Origin: Neelides folsomi
Lineage: Eukaryota > Arthropoda > Collembola > Neelipleona > Neelidae
Reading direction: 5' to 3'
Assembly: GCA_034687125.1 (NCBI GenBank)
Contig: JAQGBZ010000184.1
Coordinates: 1-64,000 of the forward strand
Length of the DNA stretch: 64,000 nt
Shown here piece by piece: positions 3,101 to 44,536 of this stretch; within the stretch, counting starts at the first letter, position 1; every line of letters begins with the position of its first letter. Position numbers and translations under genes: made by a program. Under the pieces are notes generated by a model. That model saw nothing but the letters and a program-made list of their open reading frames with translations, searched no databases and was not told the DNA's origin.

Positions 3101-6100
3101 CATTCTGAACGGTTGATAAACAAAGATATCAAAGTTAATCACGTTTAATGTTTTTATACGCCATAGTTTGTTGAATTACGTTTCTTAACGAATATTTTTA
3201 TTCGAAGGCGAATAAAATTATTTTCGAAATTCTCTGGAAACTCAAAATATGAAATCTCATTTTTCTAGCTCGCCGTTCTTCTCCGCTAATTCCCATATGA
3301 TACTTTATATATAATTAATATTACTTTACCTCAATGATATAGTAGGTTTGAGAATTGGGACAAAGAGCATATTGGATGTTGCATTCCCCAATGACCCCAA
3401 GATGTGTAATGACTTTAAGTGCCGTAGCCCGCAACATGAAATATTCCTTATTGCTCAAAGTCTGACTCGGAGCCACAACAATTGATTCTCCGGTGTGAAT
3501 TCCCAGCGGATCCACATTTTCCATATTACAGACAGTCAAACAATTTCCAAATCCATCCCTCACAACTTCGTATTCCACCTCTTTCCATCCCTTCAGACTT
3601 TTGTCAATCATCAACTGGCTTGAAACGGTGAAAGCTGGGATGGCAATTTTCTGAAGTTCCTCTCTATTGTCTGCAAAACCCGAGCCAAGACCTCCAAGAC
3701 AAAAGGCCGCCCGGGCAAGAACGGGATATCCCAATTTATCAGCCGCAACAAGGGCCTAAATTACACGAGGAAATTACATAAGTTTATACTTTATTTGCTA
3801 CTTCATTGTCATCATTGGAGAAAGCATTGTGAATGTGAAAATGGGATTCGACCTCTTCTACAGTGTATGCAATGACGCTCTCAGCAACTTGTTCTCCAAC
3901 TTCAGCAATCTTCTCTGCAAACTTCTTCCTATCTTCTGTCACAATAATCGTCTCAATCGAGGTTCCAAGAATTTTACAATTGTATTTGTCAAAAACTTTA
4001 TTCTTGTCAAGTTCAATTCCGCAATTGAGAGCCGTTTGACCGCCAAATGTTAAAAGAACTCCGTCCGGTCTTTCAGATTTAATTACCTGTGATAATTTGA
4101 TTACAATTAACATTAAGACAATAATGATCATTAGTATGTTACAGAGGATCATTAAATTCTCAATTCATTAATTAAATAAAATTCTCACTTCTTCCACATA
4201 TTCAGGAGTTAAAGGGAGAAAGTAAACTTTGTCAGCCATTCCTTTTGAGGTTTGGACAGTTGCAATGTTTGGGTTAATGAGAACGGTCCGAATGTTCTCT
4301 TCCTTCAATGCTTTGATAGCTTGAGAACCAGAATAATCAAATTCGCCAGCTTGGCCAATTGATAAACCACCTGAGCCAAGAATTAGAATTTTTCTTGGCT
4401 TTGATTGTAAAGTTTCTGTTCCATCAGCTGAATGAAATAACGGTCCGATTTGAACAGGAGAAATCTTCACAATATGATCATGAATGTTCTTTTTCACATT
4501 GCGAATGATCCCCTTGACCGAGTCTTTAACACAGTCAAGGAAAGTGTCAAAGAGAAATTCGAGGTCTTCCGGCCCTGCAGTGTGCTCAGGATGAAATTGA
4601 ACACTGGAAATTGAAAATTAAATTTTATTGATTAGATAATCATTATAATTAAACTTTATATGAGATGAGTAATTAATGGGAAATTGGAGGAACCTGAAAT
4701 AGGGCAATGATGTGTGAACAATTCCTTCATTCGATTCATCGTTTGCATTAGTGAAAAGCGGTTCCCATCCTTCTGGAAGAGTTGAAGGATCGAGAGCAAA
4801 ACCATGATTCTGTGATGTTATGAAACATCTCCTCGTTCCTTCATGAATGCATGGTTGGTTGTGCCCACGATTTCCATATCTAATTGGAAATTATCCAAAT
4901 GTTTATAATGCAATTTATCATGCTTATATAACTAACGATGTTGTTCAAAGATAAAACTATGAACATTAAAGTAAATCTAGAATTTAAAGTAATGTGTAGA
5001 AAATCACTTCATTTTAAATGTTGACCCTCCTGCAGCCAAACCCATGAGTTGATGTCCAAGGCAAATTCCGAAAATGGGTTTTTTCTTTCGCATCATTACT
5101 TTTTTTAGGTTGTCAATTGTAACACGGCAAAGTTCGGGGTTTCCAGGTCCGTTGCTCAAGAAAAGACCATCAAAATGGCCTTCATCAAAATTATTGTTCC
5201 ATGGAACAACCTCAACGGCCGCTCCACGTGCCAAAAAGCAACGAATTTGATTGTATTTCAGTCCACAGTCAACAATGCGGATTTTGGGAAATCCTTCAGG
5301 ATTGTAAATTTTGATTGTCTAAATAAAATGTTTTTTTATGAATTAAAGTTATTACTTTTTCATTAGTACTTATTTAATATTTATATTTAAAAGTTGCATC
5401 ACTCTAACTCTACTTATAAAGAATATAAACCTACGTATATAAAATAAATAGGTACATATTTACAACACAGAGCAAACCTATGAAATCATTTCATAATAAT
5501 TTTATAATGAAAATATTAAAAAAGTTAAACTGGTGTTACATACACACGAATTTATATTTGGATTAAGAAATGATTGTAAAGGGCAAGTGCATCGTTTGCA
5601 TCATGATTTCATGTTCTAAAAGTGTTTTCTCTATATCTAAACGGTTCGCGAGATCGTTTATATATAAGTAGTAATAGTATGTATGAAAGCGAGAGGGTTA
5701 AAAGTATGCAAAACAGGAGCTAGGATAAGCGGCCTTGGTGCATTCGCACTTGTGGAATTGCCAAAAATAAAATATTAAATGGGCCAAGGGGTCGGGCTCA
5801 CTTCATCTGAAACGACGGCAGATAAATTCTTCAAGTTTGGGTCCTTGAAGGGAAATTCAGGGGCGGATTGGGAGCCGACGATCTTTCCGAGCATCGTCCC
5901 TTTTTCTCTCAAGATCTTCGTCAGTTGCCGCGTGTCGATCCCGTAAATTCCCGGAATTCCCTGTCGGCCCATCCATTCCGATAAAGAATCGGCAGCGGCC
6001 CAGTGGCTCGCCACTTCGCAAATTTCTCCAACAATCAATCCACCTGCCCAAATCCTCCACGACTCGAACGAACTGAAAATAAATTTAAATTGATGGCATT

Positions 6101-10854: not shown

Positions 10855-13800
10855 ATGACCGGGAGTAGGTCAAGCAATGATCCCAACGATCCAAAGTCGA
10901 CGAAGGAAAGTGCCGAAGGCGTTGAGGACTCCGACGATGAGAGTGAAATCCTTGAAGAGTCCCCATGTGGAAGATGGGTCAAGAGGAGAGAACAGGTCAG
11001 TCAATTTATTAAATTAGAATTAAATTAAAAATTATGTGTAATATAAAACAAAAGTTCAGATCTTCAGATTCTTGCATTTATTCTTATTCAAAAGTGTAAT
11101 GATAATAATTTATATATATTTGTCACTTTTTATTATCAACTATGATAAAGAAAATGTTTAAAATTATCTTATTTAAAAATAATCCCATTAAATGAATATT
11201 AAATAAACATTAAATTAATTCCTTTCCCCTCGGTATTTTTGGAGTAATAAACTAAAAGCAAATTTTTTGTTCTAGGTTGAACAACGAGATGTTCCAGGGA
11301 TCGACTGTGCCTATTTGGCAATGGACACGGAGGAAGGAGTGGAGGTCGTCTGGAACGAAGTTCGGTTTTCGGAGCGGAAGAATTTCAAAGCACAAGAAGA
11401 GAAGATTAGACAAGTTTTCGATAACCTCACCCAACTCGAACACCCAAACATCGTCAAGTTTCACAAGTACTGGATGGAGACACAGTCTGATAAACCAAGA
11501 GTAATTTTTAATGCAATTAAAAATTCTATATTTAAAATATAAATAATATTTAATAAAAATGGCTAATACTCGACTTCTGACTTTAGCTATTATTTTAATA
11601 ATCAAATTATAATATTAAAGGATAATTCAATTTTAATCCGATCGACTTTTAATATTCTAATTGGAATTTTTATTGTGATAGGTTGTCTTTATCACGGAGT
11701 ATATGTCTTCGGGAAGTTTGAAGCAGTTCCTAAAACGAACGAAAAGAAACGTGAAGCGTCTTCCTCTCCAAGCATGGAAGCGTTGGTGTACTCAAATCCT
11801 CTCAGCTTTGAGGTATTGTATTATTATTGACTTATTTTAAATATAACCCTCAAAATAAGTATGATTGCTGACACGAATATATTTTATTAATTGAATTTTA
11901 ATCAAAAATTTATAATTTATTTTAGTTATCTGCATTCCTGTTCTCCTCCTATCATACACGGGAATTTGACATGTGATACAATATTCATTCAGCACAATGG
12001 TCTTGTCAAGATTGGATCAGGTAATGAATCTCAACATTTTTTGGAGATGACAATTTAAACCCATAAATAATATAATTTAAGTTTATTCATGGGTGACATA
12101 ATGCGTCCAATATCAATCTTGATACTAGAATCTTCGTATTACTCATTTAACATTTCTCTTGCCAAATGGAGTGTTTTATTCAGAGTGGAAGGCTTAAAGG
12201 TTTCTCGAGTCATTTCTAGAAACTTTAATCATTGGTGATTCACCTTTGTAGAATAGTCATTCAAAAATTCAGTTGGTTAACTAATTACCTAGTTTATTTA
12301 TTTACAAATGAGGTTTAAACATTCAAAACCAGTCCAACATTATCTTTATATTTATATTTTTAAAAACATTAAGACCAAATTGTATCTAACTTATATACCT
12401 AGTTATGTAATAAGTGACATAAGATATCATAGCTTTCAGTATTATCTGTATAAGAGGAAAAGGGCTATATGACATTCTTTTCTTATTTTATTGCGGCGTC
12501 TGTATTTAATTCAGTTTTTATATACATATATCACAAGGAAGAGAATTTGAAATGCGTAATTGAATTCTAGATAATAAAAGCTAAAATTAGTGTTCCGATA
12601 AAACGTGTTAATTGTAGTTCGAAATGAAATTTCTTCCTACTTATCCTTGATAGCGACAGGGTCTTATTATTTATAAGACAAATGCGGTTTAATTAAATAT
12701 TTTGATTTGTTAACCCTCATATGTTATGATACGATAAATTATATTACACATACAAATCAAAATAATTTTAATAATTAATATTAGATAAAAGTAATTATGA
12801 TATATTAATTACCTACCTAATATTTTCTCAATGGGTAATTGTAATTAAATATTGGGGCTGTGAATGTGGATTTAATTTAATTAATAATAAAAATAAGATT
12901 TTAATGAACAATAATAGACATCACGGATTTAAATTAGGTTAAATAGACTAGAATGGAATTCAGCGAAATTAGTTTATCCTTATGTCCTCATCTCTTGTGA
13001 GTTGTTCCTCTTTTGAGAGATGATGTGTATTTTTATTAAAAGATGAAGCAGACATAGGTTTAGATCCACGCCACGGTAGAATAACTATAAGATGTAGGGA
13101 TGGAATGCGGTAGCTGCGGTTTCCCCTTAATGAATACCTCATATACGCAAAACGAGAGGAATGATCGTTTGGGTCGAAGTGATTTTGGAACGAGCCAGGA
13201 AAGAGGAGGAAGAGCCAAAGAGTCTACCGGGAATTCATTTAAATGGTTGTCTTTGTTCGTACAGTGGCCCCTGATGCGATTCATCACCACGTCAAATCCT
13301 GCCGCGACAACATGAAGAACATCCACTTCGTTGCCCCGGAATATGGGAGTACGTCCAACCTTTATTATGTCTCTTTACCTGCCTCACCCGGAAATGAAGT
13401 CAGTCGGGCCCCGAATTTCATTCCGACTAAACCCTTTTTTTATTTCATCTCATGATTTTTTCTCTTTGATTTTTCATTTCCTTAAATTTATTTATTAGTG
13501 AAATTATTCATAGTAAATACAGTGCAATAACTTTTATTACATTCTTATGTAATTGTACTTAATTATGAATTAGTGAAGTGAAATTAGTGAAATTTAATTT
13601 TAACCATTTAATTCACTAATTAAACAACTAAATTTTAATAATGATTCCCGGTCCAGAAGGTATTCAATTGCCATTGTTTTTCTTTAGTATATAATATGTA
13701 GTCAGTTGTATTAATTTGATGGCTTTATTTAATAAATTCATATTTATCAAGGTGCCGCTCCGTCTTTGACATCCGCAGTGGACATTTACTCTTTTGGGAT

Positions 13801-15284
13801 GTGTGCACTGGAAATGGCAGCCCTTGAGATTCAAGGGAACGGCGACTCTGGGACGATGGTGACGGAGGACCACATCAATCGAACGATTGAATCCTTAGAG
13901 TCGGAGGAAACTCCGCTCAATGACTTCATTCGACGATGTTTGTCCGAAGGACCAGAAGGGAGGCCGACGACGCGAGAGCTTCTTTTCCATCCGGCACTCT
14001 TCGAGGTTCCATCGTTAAAACTCCTCTCCGCCCATGCCCTCGTCAATGCGGCTGCTAACATTAGCGAGTCGATAACTGACGAGGCGCTTCAGAGGCATTT
14101 TGGACCTGAGACTGTGGTCGCTGAAATTCGTCGCTCCAATTCGCCAGACTCCCCTCCCACACTCCAATTCAGAATGTCTGATGTACCGGTGTCCGAAAAA
14201 CTTGAGAAGTTCGTTGAAGATGTCAAGTAAGTGTTTTCACTGTTTTTATTATAATACTAATAGATTTAACATTTATGAGCTAAAGTGGGTTAAAGTGCTT
14301 TTTCTAATAAAATTCTAATTAATGCTAAAATACAATTAATGTTTGTTTTGTTAAGGTTTGGAATTTATCCTTTGACGTGTTTCGAGCTTCCAGTGCCGCT
14401 TCCACCCCGACAAACCGCATCAAGCCCTGAGGTCGTGGACAGTGTAAAATCCGCGAGCCCTGAACCTCCCGACATCGAGGCTCGAAGGGTCACGAACATG
14501 ATGTGTAATGTGAAGGCACGGGATGAAGGATCTGGGCTCATTGTAATACCAAATTTCCCACACCCACTCCTTCAGTTGTTTATGAAAGTGATCCTTTAGA
14601 TGACGATCCTCGTTCGCATGGAGGATAAGATGAATCGCCAGCTGTCCTGTACTGTTTCCGAGACTGACACTTCCTTCGAGCTCGCCTGCGAACTCGTTTT
14701 CTTTGGTTTCATCCATGAGGCAAGGCTCAGCTCCATTCTCTCTCACTTTATCTTATCAATCTTATCAATGAGAAATATAGTAAAGATCTGATACTTTTCG
14801 TATTAAATCATTGAAGCATATTTATATTGTATAAAATTAGATCTTTATTTTCAATATATATGATATAATGTTCAAATGACTACTCAAACAAATAATATAT
14901 AGGTATACTAGGTAGCAATATGTTATACGTACATTTTGTGAATGAACTCTTTCAAAAGTGTAGAATTATTTTTCGATTGAAGAGTTGATAACATGATATT
15001 ATACAAAAAAAGTCAATACTTAAATGTAAATTGTATGAAAAAAAATGTAATATTGGAGATTTGAGAGAAATTGTTGCGTTTGATATTGAACGGCTCAATG
15101 TTGACTTCAGGGTGACCGGGACAAGGTGGCTCTTCTGATTGAGGAGTCTTTGAGCAGTCGAGTGAACGGTGGCGGAGACTCGACGGTCGTCCTTCCACCT
15201 GGTGATTCTCCTCAAGCCCTCAGCGGCGGTTCTTTGTTCCCGCTCGAACCAACCCTGCCGATCCCAACTCCCACCCTTGGCTGA
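10855..15284 (+). CDS. NRBP1: Nuclear receptor-binding protein (NRBP/Madm) pseudokinase adaptor
   Basis: Encodes a 543-residue pseudokinase, close to the ~535 residues of vertebrate NRBP1, an adaptor in signalling, ER-Golgi transport and growth control. Exons: 10855-10995, 11276-11500, 11682-11812, 11926-12020, 13265-13348, 13752-14226, 14356-14542, 14600-14719, 15111-15284. Residues ~25-47 hold the acidic ESEILEESPCGRW motif shared with the family; the kinase-like domain follows. Catalytic motifs are degenerate: the VAIK lysine is replaced (VVWNEV), HRD reads HGN (177-179) and DFG reads IGS (195-197), as in known NRBPs. Downstream, AVDIYSFGMCALEMA and RELLFHPALFEVPSLKLL are near-invariant family blocks; the C-terminal FGIYPLT and MEDKMNRQLSC blocks also match. 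Intron 8 uses a GC donor and intron 7 is only 57 bp, both placed by family length. NRBP1 and NRBP2 are not distinguished; arthropods usually have one copy. The 3' end converges on the cuticle gene. Confidence 0.95.
12021..13264 (+). other. NRBP intron 4 (1.24 kb)
   Basis: AT-rich intron between codons for IGS and VAPD. A more GC-rich stretch at about 13060-13260 carries short open frames on both strands, but none is needed for the protein and none resembles a known family. Confidence 0.6.
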
Positions 15285-15323: not shown

Positions 15324-18154
15324 CTAGGAAAGGATGACGGGTTGTCGACGTTGTTGGAGCGGTCGACCCGTAAGGATCCCGCCAACTCGCTCCGGCACTC
15401 GTTGTTGAACCGGCTGTTGTTCCTCATCTTCTTCCGCTTCCTCTTCGGCCTTCTTGTTGGGGTCGCAAGGGTTCCCGCTCTGGTACTCATACTCCCGCTG
15501 AGAAATATTTAATTATGATACACTATTATTATATATACTAAAAATACATTGTAAATACGCTCTTGATTATATTTAATAAAATATTCTAGTTGACGACATG
15601 AATGCTTTGTGAAGGATTAATAATAAAGCTAAGTTAAATAAGGTTTGTTATACGAAAGTGTTGAGAGGAAAGAGAGAAGTATTGATTTGTTAAGGTGGAA
15701 AATATTTTAAATGTTTAACCTTGTTTCCATCTGGGTCAACGTATCCGTATTTTCCTCTCACGACGCAGTCGATTCCCTGGAAAAAAAGTAAAGGAAGTTT
15801 ATTACCTAATTATTTAACATTGTGGAGTTTGTTTTGTTTTTGAGTATAATAGATACCGAGGGATTAGTTTTATACTCCGAGAATTTCAACCATACATCAC
15901 AGTTAAAGTATTGAAATGTTAATAATGAATTAATTTTAGTCACTTTCATTTACCAATTCATCAAAATTATAGATAGATAACATTTTTTACTAAAATATTT
16001 TTGAAAGGGATCAACAAAGTTACCTATTTCTCATACGCACCATTAACGTAAAAAAAACTAACGAGTTCGTGTGAAATACTAAAATATGTATATTAGTTTT
16101 TTTCTTCATTGGATTTAATCAAAAATCAAAATTGTCTCTCTGAGCTTCAAAAGACCTAGCCACATTAATAGTCACAAAAAACACGTTTAGGTACTAACAT
16201 TATTTTTGAAATTCTTCGAATTTTTGGAATATTTATAATGGGAGGAATTGGGAGTAACATTGCTACTATTATAAATAACATTTGGAAGAATATTATGATA
16301 AAACTGAACAATGAACTTACAAGCGTTTCTTCTTTGAAAGTTCCATCTTCGTTCTCATAGCCCCAAGACATGGACCCATCGTCATTGGTCTTCATAAATC
16401 GGTTGATGGTTTGCACTGGCGGCGGTGTCGAAAGTCTTTGCTTTCCTCCTTCTAAATGAACCCGATTGTCTTGTCCGAATCGGACCGGCTGATTAGCAAT
16501 CACTCGGTTGGGTTGAGGACGGCGGGATGGAACTGCCGTTGCCTGCAATACACCATTTGCTTACAATTATGATAAATATCATATTTATAATTAATAAGGA
16601 ATAGTTTGAAATCCTACAGGCTCTCCGGAGGCAATCTCTAAATCTTATCAATTTTAATCCTATATTTATCTTTAATGCTTTTGGGTTCATTAGTTCAACC
16701 TTCTATACAAAAAGAAAATATTTATAAATATATATATATATACTTAATTTTGTGATGTCTATGATCTTTTTAGTATTTATTCTCTTACTTTTAAATGAAT
16801 GTCTCTAGCTATACTTTTTATTCACGGTCCCAAGAAACGATCAATGAGTTGAAGTTACTTTTAAAATACATCTAAGCTCTTTTATATCATACACGAGTTT
16901 AAAAACTCATTTTAATTATAATTTATAAATCGTTATCATATAAATGTTTCTGCAAATTTTGAGCTTGTGCAATTTATCATAATTTATAAATATTTCAATT
17001 TCTCAATTTCTAATAATGACACTCTTTAAATAATTTGTTCTCTTTAAACTTCAAATCAATGGAAAATTCCTAATTCAATTGAACTGCAAAAGGTAATTTC
17101 GGTTTATAATTTATATCGAAAGTGTTAATTGTAGAATACCTTACATTTGTCAATTAAGTTGATCGAAATATTGTTTATCCTTGTTAACTTTAAAATAAGA
17201 AAGAGATGCACTTGTAAATTATATGAGCCGAATTACAAGACTTCGTTTGAAAAAAATTTCGACTTGAAGAGTATAGACTGTGTACATTCTTGAATGGAAA
17301 TAAAACATATAATGTTTTTAAAGGTTGAAAATCCTTTTCAAAAGACTTTTTGCCTATTTTTTAACTTCATAAAAATCAAATTGCATTACAAATCATGCAA
17401 ATTAATAATATATTAATTTTACCTGATATTGTTGTGGTTGTTCAACTAATATTTGCTGCTGCTGTTGTGGCTGTTGAGGAACGACGAATCTTTGTGATCC
17501 TGGAAATTGTGTTCGTTGTGGTTGTTGAGGATTTGGAGTAATGCGATATTGTTGGGGTTGTTGTGGCTGTGCTTGTACAGAGTTAGTCGTTATTCTAATC
17601 GGTTGTCGACTTGGTTGTCTCGGTGGGGGAGTTGGTCTTTGAGTCGTTGCAGGAACTTGGGCTGGTTTTTGTGGTTCTTCTTCGTATTCGTCCTCGTATT
17701 CCTCTTCCTCTTGGGGCGGAAGGGACGGAGATTTGAGAAGCAACGGCCCTGGAGTGGCCGAAGGGAAAGGAGGAAACGTCCTTAGAGGAAGTGGCGTTTG
17801 GGAGTAAGTAGGTTGAGCAGTCGGTTGATGTGTCACTTGGTATTGTTGAGGTCCTTGCGGTCCCTGGAAGGCAAATGGACGGAGATTTCCTCTTTGGGGT
17901 AAAAGTTGAGGAATGGAGTTCAATTGCGGAACGGCATTTTGAGCAGTGAAGTGGGAAGGAGGGCCAAATGTCAGGGCTTGTTGGTATGCTGGTCCTTCTT
18001 GTCCGCCAATGATGACAGGTCGCGGGCCGCCCCCGCCAAGTTGCACTGATCTCTGAGGTGCTCCCATTACGCCATGAAGTAAGAGACATATCTTTAATAT
18101 TAAACGGCTGTTAAATGATTGTAGATCAAGTTGTGTAATTAACATCATTTCCAT
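15324..18154 (-). CDS. Cuticular protein with Rebers-Riddiford (chitin_bind_4) domain and long P/Q-rich region
   Basis: Predicted secreted structural protein of the chitinous exoskeleton, 394 residues. Exons: 18154-17423, 16542-16321, 15776-15720, 15497-15324, all joined in phase 0. The N-terminus has a basic/polar stretch, then a hydrophobic core (LILKICLLLHGVMG) and a likely cleavage before APQ near residue 36. Residues ~37-270 are low complexity, rich in Gln and Pro, with a Glu-rich patch (EEEEYEDEYEEEP). The R&R core spans exons 2-4: DGSMSWGYENEDGTFKEETL, then GKYGYVDPDGNKREY, ending near NPCDP. Two cysteines (GIDCVV and NPCDP) are unusual for this family. The acidic tail EEEAEEDEEQQ ends in a short basic C-terminus. 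The start is uncertain: a separate upstream exon encoding the first residues, joined near TTAAAG/ATATG at about 18086, is common in cuticle genes and cannot be excluded. Resembles CPR-family proteins such as Cpr97E-type; orthology not established. Confidence 0.88.
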
Positions 18155-24404: not shown

Positions 24405-27400
24405 ATGGCCAACGAAGGAGACGTGAGTCCTGATATTGTACAAGCTCCGGCCAAGAAGCGTCCGGGAAGAAAACCCAAAAAGAAGACCGAACCTGAAGCT
24501 ACTCCTACTCTAACTGAGGTATTATAAAATCTTTATTTTTCATAGTTAAATAATTATTGGAATTTAGGAAATTGATGGGCAACAGACGATCAAAGAAGAA
24601 ACAATTGAGTCTGCAACTGCTGATGAAACCAATCAAAATCCCACTGAGCAACCCATAAAGAAAAAACGAGGTCGTCCACGGAAAAATCCAATAAAAGAAG
24701 AAACAGCTGGTGTTCCTCAACCTTCCCAGTCATTGGATTCTCCATCGGTTCTCGGCGACAAACCTGCCCCTAAGAAAAGAGGTAGGAAACCGAAAAATCA
24801 GCAAGCTCAACCCACAGCTGAAATTCCAGAATCGAAGGTCGAATCAGTAAACTTAAGATTTGAATCGCTTGAGATCAAAACCGAGAACATCCCTTTAGAA
24901 AAACATGAGGAAAAACCATTAGAATTACTACAAATTCCCAAACAAGAATTTGGAGCCACAAACGAAGTAGTGGAAAGTATTTTTGATCGATCGTCCTCAT
25001 CCAATTTCAACCTGAGTGGTCTGTTTGGAGATGTTGACAAAAAACCAGGATTTATTCCTGGTTTGGACCTTATTGGGGATGAAGAGGTCAACACGGGTTT
25101 TTTCTCATCAACACCCAAACTCATCAGTCCACCTAAAAAGTCCTACAAAGAAAAAGCAGCTGCAGAGGAGAGACTTAAAGAAGAAAAGGACAAAGAAGCC
25201 GAAGAAGAAGGTAAATTATATTGAAATAATAAAAAAATTTTATAAAAATAAATAGATTGCATTTTTTATTTTCGTGCTTTATTACATAATTAAGACTTTA
25301 TTAGTATAAACTTATAATTATAAAATCTTTATAATTAGATTCGAATAAGATCAGGAGAAGTTCAAGGATCAAGACATTAGAAGAGAAATGGTCAGGACGA
25401 AGGAGGAGAGAAGTCGTTTTCAATAAAACTTGCCCATCGCGTTCCACCTCCCATTACGATGAAGATTCAGAGTCCAATAGTCCTGCAACAACTCCTGTCG
25501 GCCCATTGTCAGCTTCATCAAGTCCGACGAGAGACTCTCGAGATTCATTTGATTCAAGCAATGAGAATTCGATGTCGTCATATTCTTCTTCCTTTTCTTC
25601 CTTCCCTTCTTCAAATGTTTCTTCCTGGAAACCACTGAAGGTGAAATCGCGATGGAGGGATTCGCTCGACGCTGAGTCTCTCAAGGCCTTGGATTCCTCC
25701 AACAATTGTGGGGATCTTGTTAGTGATGCAGCTCCTACATCTCTTCTTCCACAATTGCCATTACCCATTATGCCTAACTTGCATCTGGTGAAAAGACCTG
25801 GGCATATCCTATTTGATTCTCGAGATGGGGAATTGATTGAGAAGCTGAAGAAGTTTGAAGGAATTGACGAGAATTTGTTTCGAATGGAGCGAAGAATTTC
25901 GAAAGAAAGCAGAGGGATGGTTTGCGATTGTTTCCTTTCCAGAGAAGAAATGGCCAGAGGTGAAGTTGGTTGTGGTGAAGATTGTCTAAATCGGCTTCTT
26001 ATGGTCGAATGGTAAATTGATCAAATTTATTTTATTTATTTACAATGTTATGTCTTGAAATTGCCCAATTTAATTTTAACAGTGGCTCAAGATGTCCAAC
26101 CGGAGAAGGATGTACGAATAAGAAGTTTGAAAGAAGGGAATACGCCCAACTCGAAATATTTCAAACGGAGAAGAAGGGGCATGGACTAAGAACCAAAAGG
26201 CGTCTTCCAGAGTATGTTTTAATTTAATATAATAAAATGTTAATGTTAATATTTAATAATTGTATTGTATTGTATTGTATTATAAACAATTCATATTAAA
26301 TCAACAATGTAAATTTCATTAATCATGACTTTATTTCAGGGGCTCATTTGTGATTGAATATGTTGGAGAAGTTCTCGATGGCCGCGAATTTCGTCATAGA
26401 ACAAAAGAATACGCCAAAAGTCAACAAGAACATTTTTATTTCATGGCTCTAAAATCGGATTCTATTATTGATGCAACCCAAAGGGGAAACTGCTCCCGTT
26501 TCATAAATCATTCTTGTGATCCGAATTGTGAAACTCAAAAGGTAGTTTTAATTCACAAACACTACCACGTTCAAACTAATAAATATAAAACATTTTTTTA
26601 TTATTATTAAATTATTTTATTAAAAACAGTGGACTGTTAATGGCGAATTAAGGATTGGGTTCTTCACCATTCGAGAACTTGAGCCGGATGATGAAATTAC
26701 TTTTGACTACCAGTTTCAACGCTACGGGTAATTATCATTAAAGCAATAGAGAAATATTAAGTCTTAATTTGAAATTTGATTTAAAGAAAACAAGCTCAAC
26801 GTTGCTACTGTGGTGTATCAAATTGTCGAGGTTGGATTGGAGGTGACGAAGACGATGAAAACCGTGACCCGTATGAATATACCGATAAGCCCAAAGCTCG
26901 AGTTGAGAAAAAGAAAATTGATATGGATATGGCGGTAGGTTTTTGCATTATGTCATACTAATACTACTTTTATACTTATCTAATTAATCCTAAACCAAAT
27001 TAAAAGTCAAAAGAATATTTCTAATACAAACCATAATTAACAAAAGTAAATATTATTAATCCCACCGTTTAATTTCAAAACATATCTTTAAAGCTAATCG
27101 AGCTACTACTATCCTCCCAATATTATATAGAAATCCAATGAATCGCAATCCAATGGTAAATCATTAATCCCAGATAGCCCAGATTCCTCTGATCGTATCA
27201 AGGTAAGTATCCCGTTAGGATTTCCAATCACTCGAATCCAATAAGATCCGAAAAACATGCGCTTTTTATTTTAAAACTATCAATATCAATATATCACATT
27301 AATATGGCAAATAATATACAAATAATATTTAATAACTGCACATAGGGATAATGAAAATGATATGGAAATCCATAGAAATTTTTGTTATTTTATACATGTT

Positions 27401-30400
27401 TTGGTATCCCTATGTGCAGTTCTTTACTGTACACCTTGTATATTAAAGTTGAATTTATCCAAATTATAGTAAATAATTTATATGCAAAATAATAATTTTA
27501 TGATTGTTTTTTTTAGTTTGAAGAAGAAATGAAAGCCCTTGAAAGAGTTGGACTGAAGAATCAAAAGCACACTTTGTCACTCTGTCGTCTCATGGTTCGA
27601 GCGGATGATTGGGGAACGCGTGAGCGCCTGTTGAAGATACTTATCAACGGAGAGGAACCTTGTCGCCGACTTTTTCTTGATTATCCTGGTCTTCGAATCC
27701 TTTGGACTTGGATGGTAGAATTACCACTTCCGGTTACAAGCTCTACAAAACAACTTATTCTAAATGACTATTATCACCATCTCGTAAGAAAATAATTACA
27801 ATAATCATTTTATAATGGTTTTATTTACACTAAATTTAATTAATACCTGAGTAAAAGTTTTTTTAAACAAGAGTGAATTGTTAAATTAACTCATTCTTAT
27901 ATTCAAATACAGTTTTTGGAAGCCCTTGGACTCTTGAAGATCCCAACTAAGAATATGATCCAAGATACCAAGGTGTTAAACATTGTAGAGAAATGGGCAT
28001 CTTGTCCATCAACAACAACTTGTAAAACGGAAAAGCCTGTGCCAGCTTTACCAGAAATTCCAAAGGAAATCAAAACAGAAAAAGAACCCACACTAAACGA
28101 AGTAGTTCCAAAAACTGAGGATCCAGATGAAGCTTCTGCTTTGAGTTTGGCTGAAACGCCAGAGATTGTGAAACAAGAACTGACTCAGCCGACCCTTCCA
28201 CTTCAAGTTGATGAAATTGAAGATATTGATGAAGTTAGTACTTGGACATTCGTTGACGAGGCGCGGAAGATCCTTGGCAGTTGGGCAGATCTCAAAGAAG
28301 TTTTCAAAATCCCAAAGAAGGAAAGAGTTGAACAAATGAAAGAGCACGAAAGAGAAGCAGATAAATCATATTCAAGCTCTGATGATTACAATTCTTCTTA
28401 TGAAAAGTATATTTTTAAAGTTTTATTTGCTAATATTTAATTTTGTAATTCTAATATATTTTGAATATTTAGAATTTAATTAAAATATTTATATTTAATT
28501 TTTTTCTTAGGACATCGGGGTCAAAATACAGTCGAATATCTCGAGTTGAACGTCGGGTATCAACAGGCGAGCAGAAGCGTTATGAAGGTCGAATGACTCG
28601 TTTCAGCAATCAACCCCGCCAACATGACAATATTTCAAAGGAAGAGCGTCGACTCATTTTTGAAGCCAAAGTGGCTCGGATTGAAGAAGAAGCAAAGATT
28701 CGTCAACAGAATGACGAGGTTGCTGCAATGCATATTGAACGATGTCTAGCTGTTGGATTGGATCCGAAAACAACTCCACTTGTTGACGAGTCCGGGAGTT
28801 ATTACCTTGATCCTGCTACTATTGTTTGGAAACCTATTGACATCAAAGGTCAGTTTTTTAAAAATCATCTTGTAACTATGTATTGTATAATATTCTATAG
28901 TATTTAATTTTTTTAATTGGAAATGAGTTAAATTAAGGCTTATACACAATTACATTAATTTTTACATAGATTATTCTGTTCCTGCTGAATGTTTCACTTT
29001 ATTGGAACTTCTTGCCTCTCGTCTTAAATGTCAAGAAGAAGCTTATGTGGTTGCTGAGCCAGAGGATTTATTTGGCGAATGGCCTCCAGGACTTCCACCA
29101 CCCCCGCCTTTACCTCCTGCAGTTCTTCCTCATGGATGGAAAATGTCAGTGGATGAAGAAGGACAATGCTATTATTATCACGTGGCACTTCGAATCCCTC
29201 AATGGAATGCCCCTGACCTGGAACTCGTCCTTTCAGACTCTGACTCTTTTGAAGAGGATGATGAAATTGAAATTGATGAAGATGATGCCCAACAGGATGT
29301 AATGAATCCTCTAACTCCAACTTTCAGGAAAACGGCAAAATCCTGTGAGAGACGAAATAAAAGAACTCTTTCTGGTCTTGTTCAGGAGCGAATCATTAGT
29401 GTGAGTTTAATAAATAGTTATTTTTACCACAAGGGTTAGTTGTTAAAAAGTTTTAACAACTAAAAATTTGTAGCTTTTTGTTTGAACTTCTCATGAGTTT
29501 TAATAACGAAGGATATTGATTACAGCCTCGAGTTGAAGAAGAAGGTCCAAGCCAAAAAGAGTTGATCCGGGCTCGAAAACAAGAACTTTTACTCAAAAAG
29601 CTCAAAGGAGAACTTGACGATTGCGATGGCCCGGATGGAGAAAATGGAGATGAGGTTCCTTTAAGTGAATCAGATGCTCCAATTGCCTCTTCTTCTCATT
29701 CACTCCTATCAAAGAGCGAAGTTCCTCTTGTGAAAAAGAGGAAAAAGGTTGAGCGAAAACAAAAGCCGAGAAGGCAAAAGGAAAAACCTTCTCCTGGATT
29801 CAAAGGGTTGGCTCAAATTCTGGGTATTCCGATTCCAACGGGTGAGGAAGTGCCAGAAGGAGAAAAGATTCCTGGGTTGGGCGATCCGCCGCCGCATCAT
29901 CAAAAAATCTCCCTCAAGAGACCGTCCAGGAATCCTGATTCTAAAACAAAAAGGGCTAAGCATAAAAAACATAGGAATTTAAGTGCAAGTAGTTCGCAAG
30001 AGAAAATTCCAGGATTGTCCATCGAACTTTTGGGCCCATCTGACCCAGCACTCGACACGGAGAAAGAAAGACAAAAGAGGAAAACGGCCGAGGCGATCAA
30101 AGAGAAATTCAGGACTGAAATTGCAAATGTGATCGTAGCGAATCTCAATCCGTATAGGAAACCTGATTGTACTGATGGAAAGATTGTATCTACGGAAGAT
30201 TTCAAACACGTGGCAAGAAAGGTAATTTATTTTATTTTGTCTTTTTTTCTTTAGTGTGAAATAGTTATAGGGTTAAATTAAGTGTCGATTTGATCGTAAT
30301 TGGAAATCAATTTCATATTAACCTTTTTGACTATTAAGCTAAAAGTGTGAATCATAGATTGAAGATGAAAAATGGATTAGAGTAGGAATAAATACATTGA

Positions 30401-34683: not shown

Positions 34684-34689
34684 TTTATT
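34684..34689 (-). terminator. Candidate poly(A) signal of the FN3-ZP-N gene
   Basis: AATAAA on the minus strand (TTTATT as printed), about 118 bp after the stop codon of the gene ending at 34807. Confidence 0.4.
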
Positions 34690-34806: not shown

Positions 34807-37800
34807 TTAAGATATACTCCTAGAAAATTGGGAATTGGTATTAGGAGATTCTTCAGAAAATTCAAACTCAAGTTCGACTTCCACTTCATCATTGGGTGTG
34901 CTGGATGGGGAAGTTGTCACAGACGCCGCTTCGTCATTGAAAGAGGAAAAGTCGTGATCCGAATTAGTTCCTCCACTTGCATAAGATCGAGCGAACCAAA
35001 TGACAGAGCCCATGCTCGCTACAATGGCCACGCAAATCATTCCAAAGACAAGTGCCGTTTCCCATCCGCCACCAGTTTGCTTCAAGCTCCGTCCAACAGG
35101 AAGTCCGGATCGGGCCTCTTGGAGAGATTCTCGGTATGCATTGGGTACGGCCGCCTCGAGCACATTTGCATGACCAGAATAAAGAGGATCCGCAACGAGG
35201 AGTTTGCCCCTTCGCTTGCTTGGAACAATGTCATCTTCGACGTCGTCAGGTCGAAGGTCGTTGGTTCTCTCCGGAGGAAGTCCGCTAACACGTTGGAAAT
35301 CGAGAGATTTGGCTACGCTCGTTTCTCGTGGCAAGTTCACACTAAAAAATGAAAAAAATTGAAAAACTTTCCTATTACGTTCATCCCTTCGCCAAATAGA
35401 AATAGTCTTCAATTGTTAGATCATTTAAGATGTTTGCTTTACTATTTTATCGACTGACTTGCTTTGCTTGTTTTACGAACCTTTCTTTTCCCATTTATGT
35501 CAATACTTCCCGACTACTACAAGTACAGCAAACTTCTTTTAAGACTTCATTCCACCCAATACCATATAGAATACTATTACATCATTTAATATAAGGTATA
35601 TGGTAATGCATGTGTTATATAAGAATCCATTTACAAAGATAAGCAAAGTGCTAAGTATATGCCCGCACTTTGTATTTTTTCAGTAGAAAAAGTAAGTTCA
35701 ATTTCAGCCCAGGGGAAATAAAATCTTTTCCCACAAGTAAACGTTGAAATTGGAAGAAGAGAAATTGCACAAACGCGAAACTTCACTTTACTCGGTTGAT
35801 CATCATACGGGTCTTTCTTTTATCATTTAGTTTTAAGGTAAAATAAAATGGACTGGTGCGTATTTCGTACAATGCGTCTTTCCAAACTCGACAGGGAAAC
35901 CTCGAGGGGAAGTTGATTATATGGAAGTTTGTTTGGGGTTCATTAAGAAAATGTTCTCACCCTGCTTTCACGATAAATGAATCCGGAGAAAAAGAGCACA
36001 CAATGACAAATCTCCTCGTTGACGCTGTCAAGATCGGAATATTTTCTTGGACCAAAATCACAGTTGTCACTCGGCTCCCGTTTATGATGCTGCCGCATTC
36101 ACGGTGGCGGATCCGCATAGGGTACTTCGTATTGTCACTGGAAAATGCAAATGATACACATTAGATTTTAAATAATAGATCTAGATAATTGAGCATGGGG
36201 TTTAACAATGTGGCGAACTAATTAAATTCAACAAAGTGTGATGGGAGTGACATTGAGAAGGTTCAGGGGATAGAAAGTGATTTCGCAAAAAATGTGAGAT
36301 CTAACGGACTCGTTCCGGTGAAGAAGTGAAGCGAAGTTTTGTCTCCGGAGTCAAATGACAACCCGAGGGATTTGAAATGAATAAGACAAATTTTGTCAAT
36401 GGGACAGCGGGTTAAAAGGCTGTAAATTGAAACGGGAACCATGAAGCATGTTGACACGTTACCTTAATTCACTGCTGCTAATTATCTTTCTTACAGGTAT
36501 ACTTTATTCTCAACAAGATCATGAATTGTTGCGTTTGCTCTCTGTTAAATTGATTTTACTATCTGTTATATTTTATAGATAATAAATATTTTGGCCATTG
36601 AACTAACCTACGATATTAAACGGTCATTTGAAATACATCTGGAAATGCTAACTATTGAATAATTGTACAACTTTAAATTTTTATAATTTTATACTAAATA
36701 TAAACGGAGTTCTTTAATTTATCTCAGAATTGACTCACCGTACCATTGAGTTAATTTTATATTATTTAAACATGCATGTAAATAATATAAAATCTATTGT
36801 AAAGGAAAAGGCTAAATGAAAAAGTGTATAGTACTTTTAAAAAATATTTCACTTTTATGATTTCAGCTTTCACTTATCTTTTGCATTTCCTGTATAAGTG
36901 ACTCATTCATGTCGAAGTTTATTAAAAAATAATAATTTTATAAAAATAAAATTTCTTCCATGTGAAATTTCTGGAGATTCGCACAATGCAAAAACTTGAT
37001 GCAACATTAATGTAAAATGGATGTAAAAGTATGAATGTAAATCTGGGTTTGAATCTTGAATTCATTTGAGAGCAAGTTCTCTTTTACATGTTAATTTCAT
37101 CCAGAATAAAGACATAAAGAACATCAAAGCATACATTTATGGATATTATGAGCCACTGCATTAATGAAATAAATGGAATTGTAGGAATTCCAAGTTGGTT
37201 CTTTTGTTTAAAAGTGCAGCTTGGACGTTATCAAGATCCTCGTGGGTTGGTTGAGATTCACCAGACGTGAATTTGTACTCAGGATGTGGAGTAAAACTTG
37301 TAATTACACAGCAATTAAGACTCGCTTATAATTAGGGCTATTTAAATGGAGGGGGAGGGAGCTCGTTGAAATTAACAAGCTTCTCCCAACCGCTTCCCAC
37401 ACTCTTTCAAACTTCAATTTGGAGGTCAATGCAACTCGAAGAAAATTATAACTTTATAACTATTCTTCTTACTTCCTCAGTTCCGCTTCTTCCCTCTGCT
37501 CCTCACAATTACACACGTTGTTTTACACGTTTCTCGAGTAGTTCAAAGGAAGTGGGGATATGTGAATGTAAAATGAGATGATGGTTCACCTGTTTGGATC
37601 TCCTTTGACTAAGCAGTGAGGCGAAGTTGAATCTTCAACGGAGATTCGGCCACCGAAGAAAGGACCCGTCTCGACAACGACTTCACTCGAATCAGCCAAA
37701 CATTTTGTTGCTTTGGCCGAAACTGTTTTAATCAAAAATGTTTTCAATTACTTATTTGTTTCGTTAATTTCGTATTCAAAGACAATCATTTATCCTAGAA

Positions 37801-40800
37801 GCTCTCTAAACATCTCTTGGAGATTCATTTTACCATTAATGGAAAATTATAGTCTTACTATTAGGTAGTTATTATTATTAGTTTATTAGTAATAGTCTGA
37901 TACTTAAAGTCTGTGGGAATAAGACCATAAATATGTAATATATACATTGTATAATTAGTCTCACTGCGGCTTATTTTCGATCAATTTAAGAAGCTTCTCA
38001 TTTCTAATGGTAAAGTGACAAATTATTCAGCTTGGTGAAGACATTAAAGGATTATTGATTTTGGCAAATGTCTTGTCTATAAACCTAATTTCAAGAATAT
38101 TTTGATACAAGCAATAATGAATTTCACATAGAGCTGCATACAACTTTGGATAAATAAATGTATTATATAGCAATGGTCGGAAGTTTCTATATTTTTCTAC
38201 TGCATGGAAGTTCGACATGTATTTATTCTTCTCCTTTCAATTAATGGGAAGCATAAAAGATATTAATGGGTATGGGAAGGGGAGTTCCTCTTCGTGAATT
38301 AACTCACTATATCCTAACCATTATAACTTGTTTTCTTCTAACACATAAGGACTATATCACGATAAAGTTTGGAAAATACTTTTCCGAAAAGTTGAATTTT
38401 TATGGAAGCGATCTAAATAAATTAAAGAAGTCTCATATTTCTCCTTCACTCGTCTCATCATTTTAATCCTGGGGTTTCCTATAGGTCTTTTAAAAGGGAC
38501 AAATAAGATACCGAAGAAATCAACCCAATTCATTCACCCGGTCGGTTCCTATCGTAAAATATCTCTCAAAATGAGTGAAATAGGAGATATGGTCTTTTAT
38601 TAGCAGAATCTACACAATCTACCAAAGTACGTATCTTATCTTTAAGTAGGAAAAATTGCTGCGGCTGCACTTTTGAAGCCTCAAAATAAAAAATAAGTAA
38701 CATTATGAAAGAATGAAAGAACGCCCTTCTTTTTATATTGATTCTATACGTGTTGAAGGAACCCATATCACGCACATGGATAAGTACTAATTTACAATAC
38801 AGTATATTATATTGAATAGATAGTATAACAACTGGCTAGATGAAACTTTGTAATAAATTTTATATGAAGTCTTAAAGTAGATGAATATGAAGTGCGATAT
38901 TATTCCAAATCTGAAATAGAGCCCTAATATTTATACTCTTATGAATTGTAAATGAGAATGAAAGCTTCCATTACATCCTTTTGTTTGCAAAGCTATCTGC
39001 GATGGTTTTCCGCCAATCTTCTGGGTCGGGTCTTGTGGAACCACTTGGAAGGAATAATTTGTGGCCATTCGCAATCCGCCAATTTCTAATAGGAAAACTT
39101 CATTCGATTCTTCTCCGGACGTCTCTTGCCTTCCGCTTCGCCCAGAAACTTCATCAACTACCTGAAAAATACAAAACATTTCTTAAGAATTTAGTCAGAA
39201 TTTCTTCAAAATGAAAAAAATTCTTGTTTGTTTAAATCATTGAGAATCAACAAGGGAGAATGAGAGTGGAAAATGAGCTAGATACATGTATAACTACACA
39301 AACTAACAAATATTTTATATTATGTAGATATAATACATACATAATGTATATTGCACAGCTGCATCAACAGAAATTCATATTAAATATGTATGTATAAGAA
39401 TTTAGCCAATCATTTTCATTATGTGCATGAAAAGAATGCGATTCTTTTTTTTGAATTTTTGAGGTCTGGTCTGGTCCTCTCACCGAGGAATTTGTAAAAA
39501 GGTAACGTAGACATCATAATTTACGCCTAGCTTTGGGCCAAAATGACAGAATACGTCCATGAAAGTAGGTATGTGTTTATTTGTCTTGTGGTTCAATAGT
39601 ACATCTTCTTTCCCTTACATTTGAATGTCATCGTGAATCAACCGCAGAAATCTCATTCTACTCGGGTTTTCCATTTCCAACTCCTTTTCCAATCCAGGGG
39701 AATTTGGTTTGGAAGAGAAAGTCTTTGAAGACGCTCAATTGTTTCTTCGACTTTGTCAAATGAGGTTTCCGCACTGTTTTCGTTTCAAAGGAGAGCAAAA
39801 TATTCTACAAGCATCGCCACTTCCCACACATTGATTTAAGTTTCGTATACACGTAAGTAGATAACAAAATTCAGTCTTGGAGAACAAATCCAATTCTTAT
39901 GAAAGTGAACTCAATAACAAGTATAACATATTTGAATTCAATTCCAATTCATTTCTTTGAGTTTAATCAGATGATATCCCATTTGTTATGGGTTCTTTTT
40001 ATTGTTGAAATACCTTACATTTATTTTAACTTATGCTTTTAATGAAATTCCATATTTATTGTGGAATGATCTGATTACTTATTGTGAGTTCATTCATAAC
40101 ATATAAAATACATAATACCCTATAATGTTTCTAAAACAGAAAACGCAATCTTAGAATTTCTTCCCGAATTGTTCTTTTCTTTTTCTTGTGGGTTTCCTTT
40201 ATTGTATGCAGCGGAAATTGAAAGTTTCTCCCTTCCTATTCGCATCCGGGGAAGAAATAAATTTTCAGTTTGATTTATCACGGCAGCTAAATTTTCATCG
40301 ATCTCCCAATTCCCAAACTGAATTATGTTCCTCCCTACGTCCCTACTGAGCCATAAAATATGCATATATTTATATTTATTAGATCTCGCGTGATATTATT
40401 AAGTTAGATATATAATTGAACGTTGAACGGGTTTGTTCTGCCAAACGTAATGATTTAATACTTCAATTCCCCTCTTTACACATTTTAACAACTAGGGCCC
40501 TTTCATGCGACAAATTTTGCATAATTCTAATTTTTCATGCGAATTGTGCTAAATGTTAAATTTGATCAATTCATAGTGTCAGAAATGGTAAAATGGTAAT
40601 TCAATTGGCACATTTATGAACTTGACAGTATTTCTTTAAAAGAGAAATTTAACTTACTATTATATTTATTATTATTTAATAAAGTTACGTAATTGACAAA
40701 ACGGCTCAATAAGCTTTCTGCCCCGATTTCCAGAAAGTTAATAAATAGCAGATACACATATGGCGATATTTCAAATACTTGAGAATATTAAAACTTAAAG

Positions 40801-43800
40801 TTAATAATGAACACAAGTGTTGGGAAATGTTGGGCCAATATAAATTTTAAGTATCAACAATTTGCATATTCATTATTCAAAAAGTTTCGAGATTCCGACA
40901 TTCCTTGGATAAACTTGTAGGGTCGACTTAAATTTAGTGTGGAGGAATATGCAAAAAAGTTCTTAAATATATTTGGCAGAATAACAAAAGCAAGAGGAAA
41001 GGTGAGCAAGTTGAAAGTTACAAACAAGAATTACGTATGGACAGGTAGTTAATTTTATCAAAGGGGTATAAAGGCTCATCCACATGAAGAATCGGACTCG
41101 TTCATTATTTTAAGGCATCGAGGCGTCATGTTCAGTTCCAAGGAAAAAACTGTTTAAAATGCCATAAGCCCCTTCATTCAATTATGACTTAATGCAATTT
41201 CCTATCACGACTGTTTCCTTCTTCATGTAGGAAAATGCTAATTTTTAAACACTTCAAGGACCCATGTCAATCCCATACAAGATACTGCGTTTATTAATAA
41301 TACTACATTTAATTTTAAATTCTTGAGCTCTTATGTCATTTAGATATTTAATTTGGAAACAGATAACATCTATCAATTAAATTTTTAACATGATCATATT
41401 ATTTTCTAAAATAAAAAGAATATACGACCTAGAGTACTATGTAGCACTACGATATTAAAAAGGTCAGTAAAATATTGGGTCAAATATTGGTTTAATAAAG
41501 TGAATTTTCCTCTTTGAGCTCTAAGGAGGTCATCGTGGCTTTCGGTTTTCGTTTGTGGCTTTCGCACGCCTCGTTTCGGATCGAGGATGAGAATTTACAG
41601 AGATGTGATTAATTTCACTAATTATCCCTCTCCTCCGCCCCTTTTCTTTGAGAGCCAAAGAATTCGAAAATTTCAGCCACGAACTTGGATGGGCTTTCAA
41701 GGATGGTCAAACTTTTCACTTACCATAATCCTAAATCTTTCTTTTACTTTATAAATTACCTATCATTATCAAAAACCAATCTAGCCTTTAAATCTCTTCG
41801 AGTTCGAGGAAATGTGTAAACAATAATTTTTTCCGTTCATTTACTACTTAGCATAAACTTATTTTTGACTCATATCAAAAAATATATAATAATACGAGCC
41901 TGTCATCCGTAACCTACGGGTCACTCAGGGTTAGAGATTTGGTGCTTAAGTCGAGGGAACACCGCTGGATATCAGGGAATCGATTAGTACAAACCCCATT
42001 CCGATCGGATCATCCCAAAGGGCTGTAGGCTTGATGACGTGAAATTAGAGTCACGTATTATATATATGATGTTTAGGTATATTTAGAATATAAAAAGCAT
42101 ATAAACTTATTTTATTTATTGAATGAATTTTTTAATTTACAAAAAAATATATAAAAATGCAATACATAATGTAAGTTATTGTACTACAATACATTTTTAA
42201 ATATTCTAAGAAGCTCCTTTGGCATCTTCAGGGTTAAAATTATTGGTCATATAGATTGACGTGAATTGGGTAAAAAAATTCCATTCATCCCAAATTCCAA
42301 TGAAGCGTGAATTTTAGTTTTTCCTTTTGTCTATTGTGGACTTTAAATAAAATTTGATTCGCAATCTTCTTCACCACATACTACCATATATGAGAAGAAC
42401 ACTTCAATTCAATGTCTAATATCTTCAGTATGAAATAAAGATGGGTCCAGTACTCTATAATGAGACTGAATAAAAGATGCTAATAAGGTAATATGCAGAT
42501 GTCATAAAATTGCAAGTATTGCAAATAGTAATGTTGTACTTATATCTAATAAAATTTATTTCTATTACTAGAACTAATGATACCACTGCCACCACACTGA
42601 TATCTTCCTTTTTTCAAAATAAGTATACAGGGCTTACTTTTAATGGTTTGGCATGCATTTGGATCTCGATTCGACCATAATGCTTCTTAGGATGGGATAA
42701 TACATAAAGACAAGTGGTGGCAGCCTCATCTTTATACTACTTACAATTACAATGGTATATAAGAAAGAGATGAAATGGTAGATGACTATTTATGTTATAA
42801 TGAATCGAAGAGTTCATGGTTGACTCGTCTGGATTTGCCTATTTCGTATCTCAAGAGGAACGCCATTCATAATGAGAGGACAAAGGAAACGTGTGAACGT
42901 GGAAGTGGAAGATTCTCTTTACCTCATCACTCATCTCATATTAGCCATTTCATGTATGATTATTCTAATAACTCTATTCGCGGAGTGATGATTTTTTACA
43001 CTTTAATCGCATGATGAGGTTTCATTTATAAATATAATCGCGAATCCATGCAGGGAATAAAAAGTTTCTGAGAAAATGTATCTTAGGTAGATTGATGCTT
43101 ATTAGTCATAATATTGTTATCAGTCACTTAAAATTTGTTAATTAACCTTACCACTCTGGCATCTTATTTAGAAAAAAATTTAAATTCTTAAGGTGCCTTG
43201 AAAAAACACCTTCTACCTTTTGATCATCACGATAAAAAGGAATAATTTTGAAATGGGAAGGTAGCGTTTAACATGGAAGTGAATTAATTATTTCTACTTC
43301 CAATACATTAAATTTTCATATTTGATAATCAATTCTCTAAAAAATTCAAAATACAGACATACAGTGCGATAATATTTATTATATTACAAAACTATAATAT
43401 TTATAAACAACTCGTGTTTTATGTGAATATTTCTATATGAGAATTCCTGATATCAAGAATCACAAGTTCGTTCGATTTTTATACATAATATGTAAGATTT
43501 GGAGATTATAAATCCCTAAAGTTTGATAAGCAATGACGATGACGATTGCAATATAAAGATACAACGTAAATTTCATGCTATGCAGGCACATTAACACACA
43601 TGATATAATGCTTATAACTATAGGTAAGATACACATTGTACTATATGAAGAAACAGTGGACTGCTAAAAAATCATTATTTGTTATTAATATCCACAATCA
43701 AATACCCTTGAACCTTCGATATTTTAATAATTAACTTGTGATCTTGAAACGTCTTTGACCAATCACAATTGAATTCCATCATGGTTATTAATTTCTAATT

Positions 43801-44536
43801 TGAACCTCCTACAAGCTTTGATTAATCGTGATTCATATGCAGATGTAAGGGAAAGATGTTTTCATGATACAAGGTAATTTTACTATTATTAAAAGATTAC
43901 TTGATATCTGCACCGATGAAGTCCCCATGTGTGAAGCTCGCAATATCTGACTCGAAAGGAAACAGGTCCTTTGATATTCCTGGGATATTTCCATTGAAGT
44001 GACGCCATTCGAAATCCCGCTTCTCCCTCCAATTCATCAATATCTAATAATAGAATAATGAACAATGATCATCTATTATTAGGAAAGCATATTACCTAAT
44101 AATAAAATTGAAATGTGGAAATAAACATCAGAAATGCTACAATTGTTGAAGCAAAGATGAACTAATAAAGACTCATGAAATACTTTATATAAAAATAAAA
44201 AAGAATTTTAATAACGGAACATCAATTTATCAATTTACTAATACATGGATAAGCTTCTCAAAGGTTTCTTACTATAATGTACAAAAAATTGAACAAATGT
44301 ATTTGCTCTATTTTGAATGGGAATAAATGAATGAAAATATAAACGAAAAAATGGACGATTTTGTTACAAAATTGAGCATGAAATTGTTATAAAAAGAGAA
44401 TCTAGAAAAGATATATTTTTGTATATTATTTACTTGAGATTGAGTGTGTAATGGCGATGAAGTGAGCAGCGAAGAGGAAAACGAGAGACGATAAGTGTCG
44501 GATGAATCTCCGTCGTCTCCTCTCGACGGCCTCCAT
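34807..44536 (-). CDS. Unrecognised type I membrane protein: signal peptide, fibronectin III, ZP-N domain, transmembrane helix
   Basis: I do not recognise this gene as a named family. Exons: 44536-44434, 44043-43901, 39161-38975, 37722-37590, 36137-35961, 35341-34807; 425 codons with every junction in phase. Residues 1-34 form a signal peptide with a strongly basic start (VERRRRRFIRHL) and core SLVFLFAAHFIAI. Residues ~36-143 look like one fibronectin III domain (SLQWKYP, FRVRYCEL, LRMATNYSFQVVPQ, closing QTKG). Residues ~148-240 look like a ZP-N domain: cysteines 152, 181, 203 and 236 in the usual four-Cys arrangement, GPFFGGRISV, and an NGS sequon at 208. A linker without cysteine, including SKRRGK at 289-294, leads to a transmembrane helix at ~343-364 and a Ser/Glu-rich tail ending in EVEVELEFEFSEE. 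No ZP-C domain is encoded. The start exon begins just after an acceptor (TTTCAG/TTGAGCC-ATG), so a further upstream noncoding exon is expected. Probably an apical extracellular-matrix or surface protein (inference). Confidence 0.8.
38976..43900 (-). other. Introns and the 4.7-kb intron 2 of the FN3-ZP-N gene
   Basis: Apart from coding exon 3 (39161-38975 at its left end), the stretch 39162-43900 is a single large intron dividing the FN3 domain. It is AT-rich. The open frame at 40120-40365 has no usable donor, and the frame at 42775-43014 has no family resemblance. The only compositionally odd part is 41889-42058, listed separately. Confidence 0.5.
41889..42058. other. GC-richer 170-bp island with short inverted ends, in intron 2 of the FN3-ZP-N gene
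   Basis: A block near even base composition inside very AT-rich intron. The outer edges read ATAATACG on the left and CGTATTAT on the right, an 8-bp inverted repeat. It has no long open frame. Minus-strand ATCGATTCC resembles a Pol III B box core, but no convincing A box was found, so a SINE or structured RNA is only a possibility. Confidence 0.35.

Follow-up and report, generated by a model that had tools for sequence, protein, structure and literature searches.

A predicted single-pass membrane protein of Neelides folsomi with FN3-like and ZP-N domains and no detectable ZP-C

The window analyzed here, a 64-kb stretch of DNA from the collembolan Neelides folsomi (positions 1 to 64,000 of contig JAQGBZ010000184.1), carries on its minus strand, from 44536 to 34807, what looks to be a real gene of six exons (Table 1), called the ZP-N gene below. 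Splice reconstruction gives five introns, all GT-AG and with phases of 1, 0, 1, 2, and 2, in order, and a coding sequence of 1278 nt (425 codons and a stop). Intron 2 spans 4.7 kb. Neither a stop codon nor a frameshift occurs within the exons, and an in-frame TGA lies two codons 5' of the ATG. Cysteines are located at residues 69, 79, 152, 181, 203, 236, and 351 of the product. The initial annotation had described six exons that join in phase into 425 codons, with cysteines at 152, 181, 203, and 236; the reconstruction bears out this layout, and the four positions are exact in the spliced product. A CAG resembling a 3' splice site is found just 5' of the TGA and ATG, and may be a sign of an additional 5' untranslated exon. 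Beyond the stop codon, there are four AATAAA or ATTAAA hexamers within the 400 nt searched.

Table 1. Positions of the ZP-N gene exons and of other features in the window.
Feature	Positions	Strand	Description
Exon 1	44434..44536	-	Start codon, basic n-region, and hydrophobic signal sequence (amino acids 1–34); phase-1 end; GT donor
Exon 2	43901..44043	-	First half of FN3-like domain (to amino acid 82), including C69 and C79
Exon 3	38975..39161	-	Second half of FN3-like domain (from amino acid 83)
Exon 4	37590..37722	-	First half of ZP-N (C152, C181)
Exon 5	35961..36137	-	Second half of ZP-N (C203, C236)
Exon 6	34807..35341	-	Stalk, K290–K294 basic stretch, transmembrane helix, acidic tail, stop
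AATAAA poly(A)-signal-like hexamer	34684..34689	-	117 nt 3' of the stop; weak evidence
Open frame of 89 amino acids	47622-47888	-	GC 51%; no Pfam match at E≤0.01; possible exon upstream of the ZP-N gene
SETD2-like histone methyltransferase gene	25335-30251	+	AWS (E 0.001, below cutoff) and SRI (E 8.8e-7, above cutoff); adjoins the ZP-N gene
Open reading frame	16168-16560	-	No Pfam match at E≤0.01; DGSMSWGYENEDGTFKEET presumably resembles the Rebers-Riddiford cuticle motif
Protein kinase domain, C-terminal part	13736-14227	+	E 5.4e-5, below cutoff; presumably resembles an NRBP-type pseudokinase
Part of carbamoyl-phosphate synthase gene	3324-3755	-	CPSase_L_D2, E 5.5e-54; presumably CAD-type, with more exons probably between 1642 and 6194 on the same strand

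The coding potential of the exons was evaluated by codon-usage log-odds trained on neighboring genes. For comparison, 230 stop-free stretches of at least 44 codons outside known exons were scored, giving a median of -7.5 and best values of 10.1, 9.4, and 7.0. All six exons have positive scores (0.5, 1.8, 9.1, 9.4, 2.0, and 30.9 for exons 1 through 6). Exon 6 alone tops all 230 comparison stretches, exons 3 and 4 rank close to the best of them, and exons 1, 2, and 5 score weakly; exons 2 and 5 therefore rest on the domain matches described below. Hydropathy peaks (19-residue windows above 1.4) occur at residues 11–36 and 337–368, and the signal peptide is called by hydropathy only.

An FN3 domain had been assigned to the N-terminal part of the protein, and the sequence of residues ~35–145 supports this assignment at a Pfam score below the cutoff. 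The sole Pfam match to this segment is fn3 (PF00041; E 6.9e-4, 20.2 bits versus a cutoff of 25), with its best stretch at amino acids 49–123. Residues W52, Y68, L112, and Y118 sit at what we take to be core FN3 positions. Exons 2 and 3, which together encode the FN3-like domain, are bounded by phase-1 introns; such introns on both sides of a domain are the usual mark of a shuffled module. A phmmer search of the PDB with the FN3 segment yielded no relatives at E≤10.

The FN3-like domain is followed by a region for which sequence comparison supports a ZP-N domain in which the four cysteines are all present, every Pfam match being below its curated cutoff. Residues 151–238 align with positions 6–103 of the 103-position Pfam CUT_N profile (E 6e-4, 20.7 bits versus a cutoff of 27), and match Pfam ZP-N weakly (E 0.083, 13.6 bits versus a cutoff of 24.7). 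In genome-wide searches with these two Pfam profiles, the exons of the ZP-N gene were absent from the matches. A further profile was constructed from six of the seven other ZP-N loci of the genome (L003–L008), with the query excluded; L009, which has one clear exon only, was kept out of the profile and the alignments. This own-genome profile was searched against the spliced product along with six-frame open reading frames of at least 20 amino acids from the window. The spliced product matched with an E of 1.9e-6, and among the window open reading frames the exon 5 frame was best (E 3.6e-4 alone) and the exon 4 frame second (E 0.43 alone). Hits of this profile to the loci used to build it are by construction, and the independent check is Pfam. 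Profile-profile comparison by hhalign gave an E of 5e-5 at a probability of only 67.6. Seven columns are invariant between the product and all six aligned paralogues: C152, C181, C203, C236, V159, F166, and G168. The ZP-N-like four-cysteine block of the initial annotation is thus upheld by the own-genome profile and by the alignment of its four cysteines in six of six paralogues.

Structural databases add little to this. A profile search of the PDB using the alignment with the query included retrieved only ZP3 (3nk3; E 0.041); with the query left out, ZP3 appeared at an E of 0.15 beside an unrelated chain at 0.18, making the evidence from the PDB weak. The whole 425-amino acid protein had no relatives in the PDB by phmmer at E≤10. 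As for gene structure, a phase-2 intron immediately follows the second cysteine in the canonical ZP-N gene at locus L006 (near 1600, plus strand), and in the ZP-N gene an intron of phase 2 lies about 8 residues past the second ZP-N cysteine. The two introns may mark a shared ancestral position.

A ZP-C domain had been noted as missing, and its absence from the product is supported by sequence searches. A ZP-C profile built from loci L004, L005, L006, and L008 of the same genome, whose hits on those four loci are likewise by construction, detected nothing in the six-frame translation of the window (open reading frames of at least 20 amino acids), the best E being 1.2 at 2623–2751. No Pfam family matches exon 6 at E≤1, and no cysteine occurs between residues 237 and 350; after C236 there is only C351, which is inside the transmembrane helix. 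The possibility of missed ZP-C exons was dropped, as the six frames of the window lack a ZP-C signal.

The other ZP loci of the genome provide a point of reference. A CUT_N search of the genome produced eight matches in seven loci, with the ZP-N gene not among the eight; five were over the cutoff (two of them jointly, L008/L010) and three below it (L006, L007, and L009). The corresponding search with Pfam ZP-N produced one match, below the cutoff. In four of the seven other ZP-N loci (L004, L005, L006, and L008), a ZP-C part adjoins ZP-N; at L003, L007, and L009, the roughly 3 kb of sequence taken gave no clear ZP-C call. PF00100 (ZP-C) scores above the cutoff at L005 and L008 and, in two pieces, below it at L006; L004 matches CUT_C below the cutoff (E 0.0099) and has a PAN domain confirmed by Pfam. 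By eye, we take L005 and L006 to be dusky-like, L004 to be PAN-ZP, and L008 to be Dumpy-like. The ZP-N of these canonical ZP-module loci is homologous to that of the ZP-N gene and has the same four cysteines, but L004, L005, L006, and L008 have ZP-C beside ZP-N, whereas none was found in the ZP-N gene. A protein search of the genome for a close paralogue gave four matches at E≤10, all to exons 2–5 of the gene itself; this search scores the best candidates only and missed the canonical ZP loci, and so excludes close copies rather than distant ones. No prokaryotic relative emerged, as none of 41 pattern matches in the scanned genome contigs was confirmed by tblastn. In a separate genome search, 7tm_6 (odorant receptor) had three matches, all over the cutoff and the best at 36.3 bits; locus L015 is a long single-exon open frame with 7tm_6 above the cutoff (36.3 bits, and 36.9 for a piece). 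Taken alone, these matches would be in keeping with an insect, though not decisively.

Beyond ZP-N, the predicted protein continues through a cysteine-free stalk (residues ~239–341) to a transmembrane helix (residues ~343–366 by hydropathy) and a tail (residues 366–425) with 12 Asp or Glu and 2 Lys or Arg. Cysteine positions, hydropathy, and residue counts accordingly agree with the linker, helix, and acidic tail proposed at the outset. The stalk contains a basic stretch, K290–K294 in the sequence SKRRGK, which had been put forward as a possible basic cleavage site. Furin recognizes R-X-K/R-R. Ser289 occupies P4 of K290 R291 R292, and as a furin site the stretch fails; this assignment was dropped. 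The only furin consensus in the 425-amino acid product is in the N-terminal RRRR, at residue 6.

Proteins having ZP-N without ZP-C are already on record, and the absence of ZP-C in the ZP-N gene thus belongs to an established class rather than a new one. Those listed are Papillote, CG16798, CG10005, PLAC1, Oosp1-3, C. elegans F55A4.10, and carp ZP1 (Jovine et al. 2006, PMC1479692). The features of the class (signal peptide, ZP-N, and no ZP-C) are all found in the 425-amino acid product, with the signal peptide assigned from hydropathy only. The architecture had been described as belonging to no named family. This does not hold for ZP-N without ZP-C, which is a described class (PMC1479692); for the FN3-ZP-N pairing, no name was found in the literature searched, a search that most subscription journals lie outside. 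Within the ZP literature searched, "fibronectin type III" had no occurrence among the matches listed, and "FN3" had one, in a paper on abalone perlucin.

Of these proteins, Drosophila CG16798 has the most similar layout and is, as our best guess, the likely fly counterpart, the comparison being one of published domain order and lengths only. CG16798 (561 amino acids) is listed with a signal peptide (1–28), a long region, ZP-N (255–343), and no ZP-C (Table 1, PMC1479692). Its signal peptide and ZP-N are 226 residues apart, as compared with ~117 in the ZP-N gene product, and its ZP-N is followed by 218 residues, as compared with 187 (PMC1479692). The fly gene is little studied: its transcript has been termed completely uncharacterized (PMC9733130), and a paper on trichomes of D. 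suzukii tabulates the gene under the heading "Membrane matrix" (PMC9331688). A whitefly gene also bears the name CG16798 (PMC9727895). The other two Drosophila proteins share ZP-N without ZP-C with the ZP-N gene product but differ in proportion. Papillote (CG2467, 963 amino acids) is far larger, and has its ZP-N near the N-terminus (80–167) and about 800 residues beyond (PMC1479692). CG10005 has 231 amino acids, or 182 in its short form (PMC1479692); the short form is nearly all ZP-N (PMC4883753) and has no space for an FN3 domain and a long stalk. As to their roles, Papillote is described along with Dumpy and Piopio as needed to link the apical extracellular matrix (aECM) and cuticle to the epidermis (PMC6303098, citing Bökel et al. 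2005), and CG10005 as expressed during wing cuticle formation (PMC4883753).

We consider it probable, at roughly 60%, that the ZP-N gene encodes a single-pass ZP-N-only membrane protein, probably the counterpart of CG16798, that acts as an apical tether docking on a ZP-type matrix. The protein would sit apically in the membrane of cells that form cuticle, where its ZP-N would dock onto ZP-type matrix proteins, for example those of the other ZP loci in the genome, and would tether or cap filaments built by other proteins. The FN3-like domain would supply a second binding surface. In the uromodulin filament, each subunit makes its contacts through ZP-N, ZP-C, and the linker that joins the two domains (PMC7737619). 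Having neither ZP-C nor a ZP-N/ZP-C linker, the protein should not be able to build a uromodulin-type filament alone: it offers a ZP-N surface but cannot receive the next subunit, which makes a tether or cap the simplest reading. The initial suggestion of a small arthropod family of apical-matrix or adhesion receptors is retained, as a best guess, for an apical-matrix or adhesion protein. It is not retained for a family, as the absence of a close second copy in the genome, by a search insensitive to distant copies, means that nothing here shows one.

The tether reading has to be weighed against one in which ZP-N serves as a receptor module, as in endoglin or betaglycan, and the protein is an adhesion or signaling receptor whose acidic tail signals. 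FN3 domains are common in receptors, and the presence of one here is compatible with this idea, as are the single-pass topology and the composition of the tail. In addition, residue 238, two residues past the fourth ZP-N cysteine, is Phe in the product; the corresponding residue is Tyr in the aligned ZP3 chain and either Tyr or Trp in the six paralogues. Against a receptor, exon 6 matches no Pfam profile at the threshold used, and betaglycan and endoglin are reported to dimerize and bind ligand through ZPc (PMC7665627), the part that is absent here. We regard a receptor as unlikely.

A still less likely alternative is that the ectodomain is shed at K290–K294 and self-polymerizes through ZP-N, the membrane form being only a precursor. 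The ZP-N of ZP3 fused to MBP folds and assembles into filaments in vitro (PMC1479692), and Piopio is shed by Notopleural (PMC10597583). However, the basic stretch departs from the furin consensus, and with ZP-C absent the protein would lack the part that has been proposed to act as regulator in other ZP proteins. Furthermore, C. elegans LET-653 ZPn alone was reported to localize weakly or not at all, to be non-specific in the vulva, and to give no rescue (PMC7665627), a result that argues against ZP-N alone sufficing for matrix binding and so counts against the tether reading as well. Shedding in itself is compatible with the tether reading: the stalk may be cut by a trypsin-like protease, and release by a matriptase-like protease, as for Piopio, is possible by analogy, with the basic stretch off the furin rule.

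Lastly, an incomplete model, in which ZP-C exons lie elsewhere or were lost from the assembly or the gene is decaying, is very improbable: the codon scores of exons 1, 2, and 5 leave room for it, but exon 5 joins in phase to an exon 6 that itself encodes a transmembrane segment and tail and ends in a stop, the exons are intact, and no ZP-C signal was detected in the window.

The pairing of FN3 with ZP-N adds a modest new detail and does not amount to a new system, and the FN3-ZP-N ectodomain is small (~215 residues) and hence convenient to express and test. ZP-module precursors are commonly cleaved off the membrane during assembly, so that something must hold the matrix, and a ZP-N-only membrane protein is a natural tether or cap. 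More speculatively, and doubtful as a general proposal, there may be a conserved arthropod class of FN3-ZP-N proteins that act as membrane-bound caps or docking points, whose ZP-N would bind a filament end but could not extend it. If true, such a class would explain how matrices of ZP polymers stay on the cell once the polymers have been cut free.
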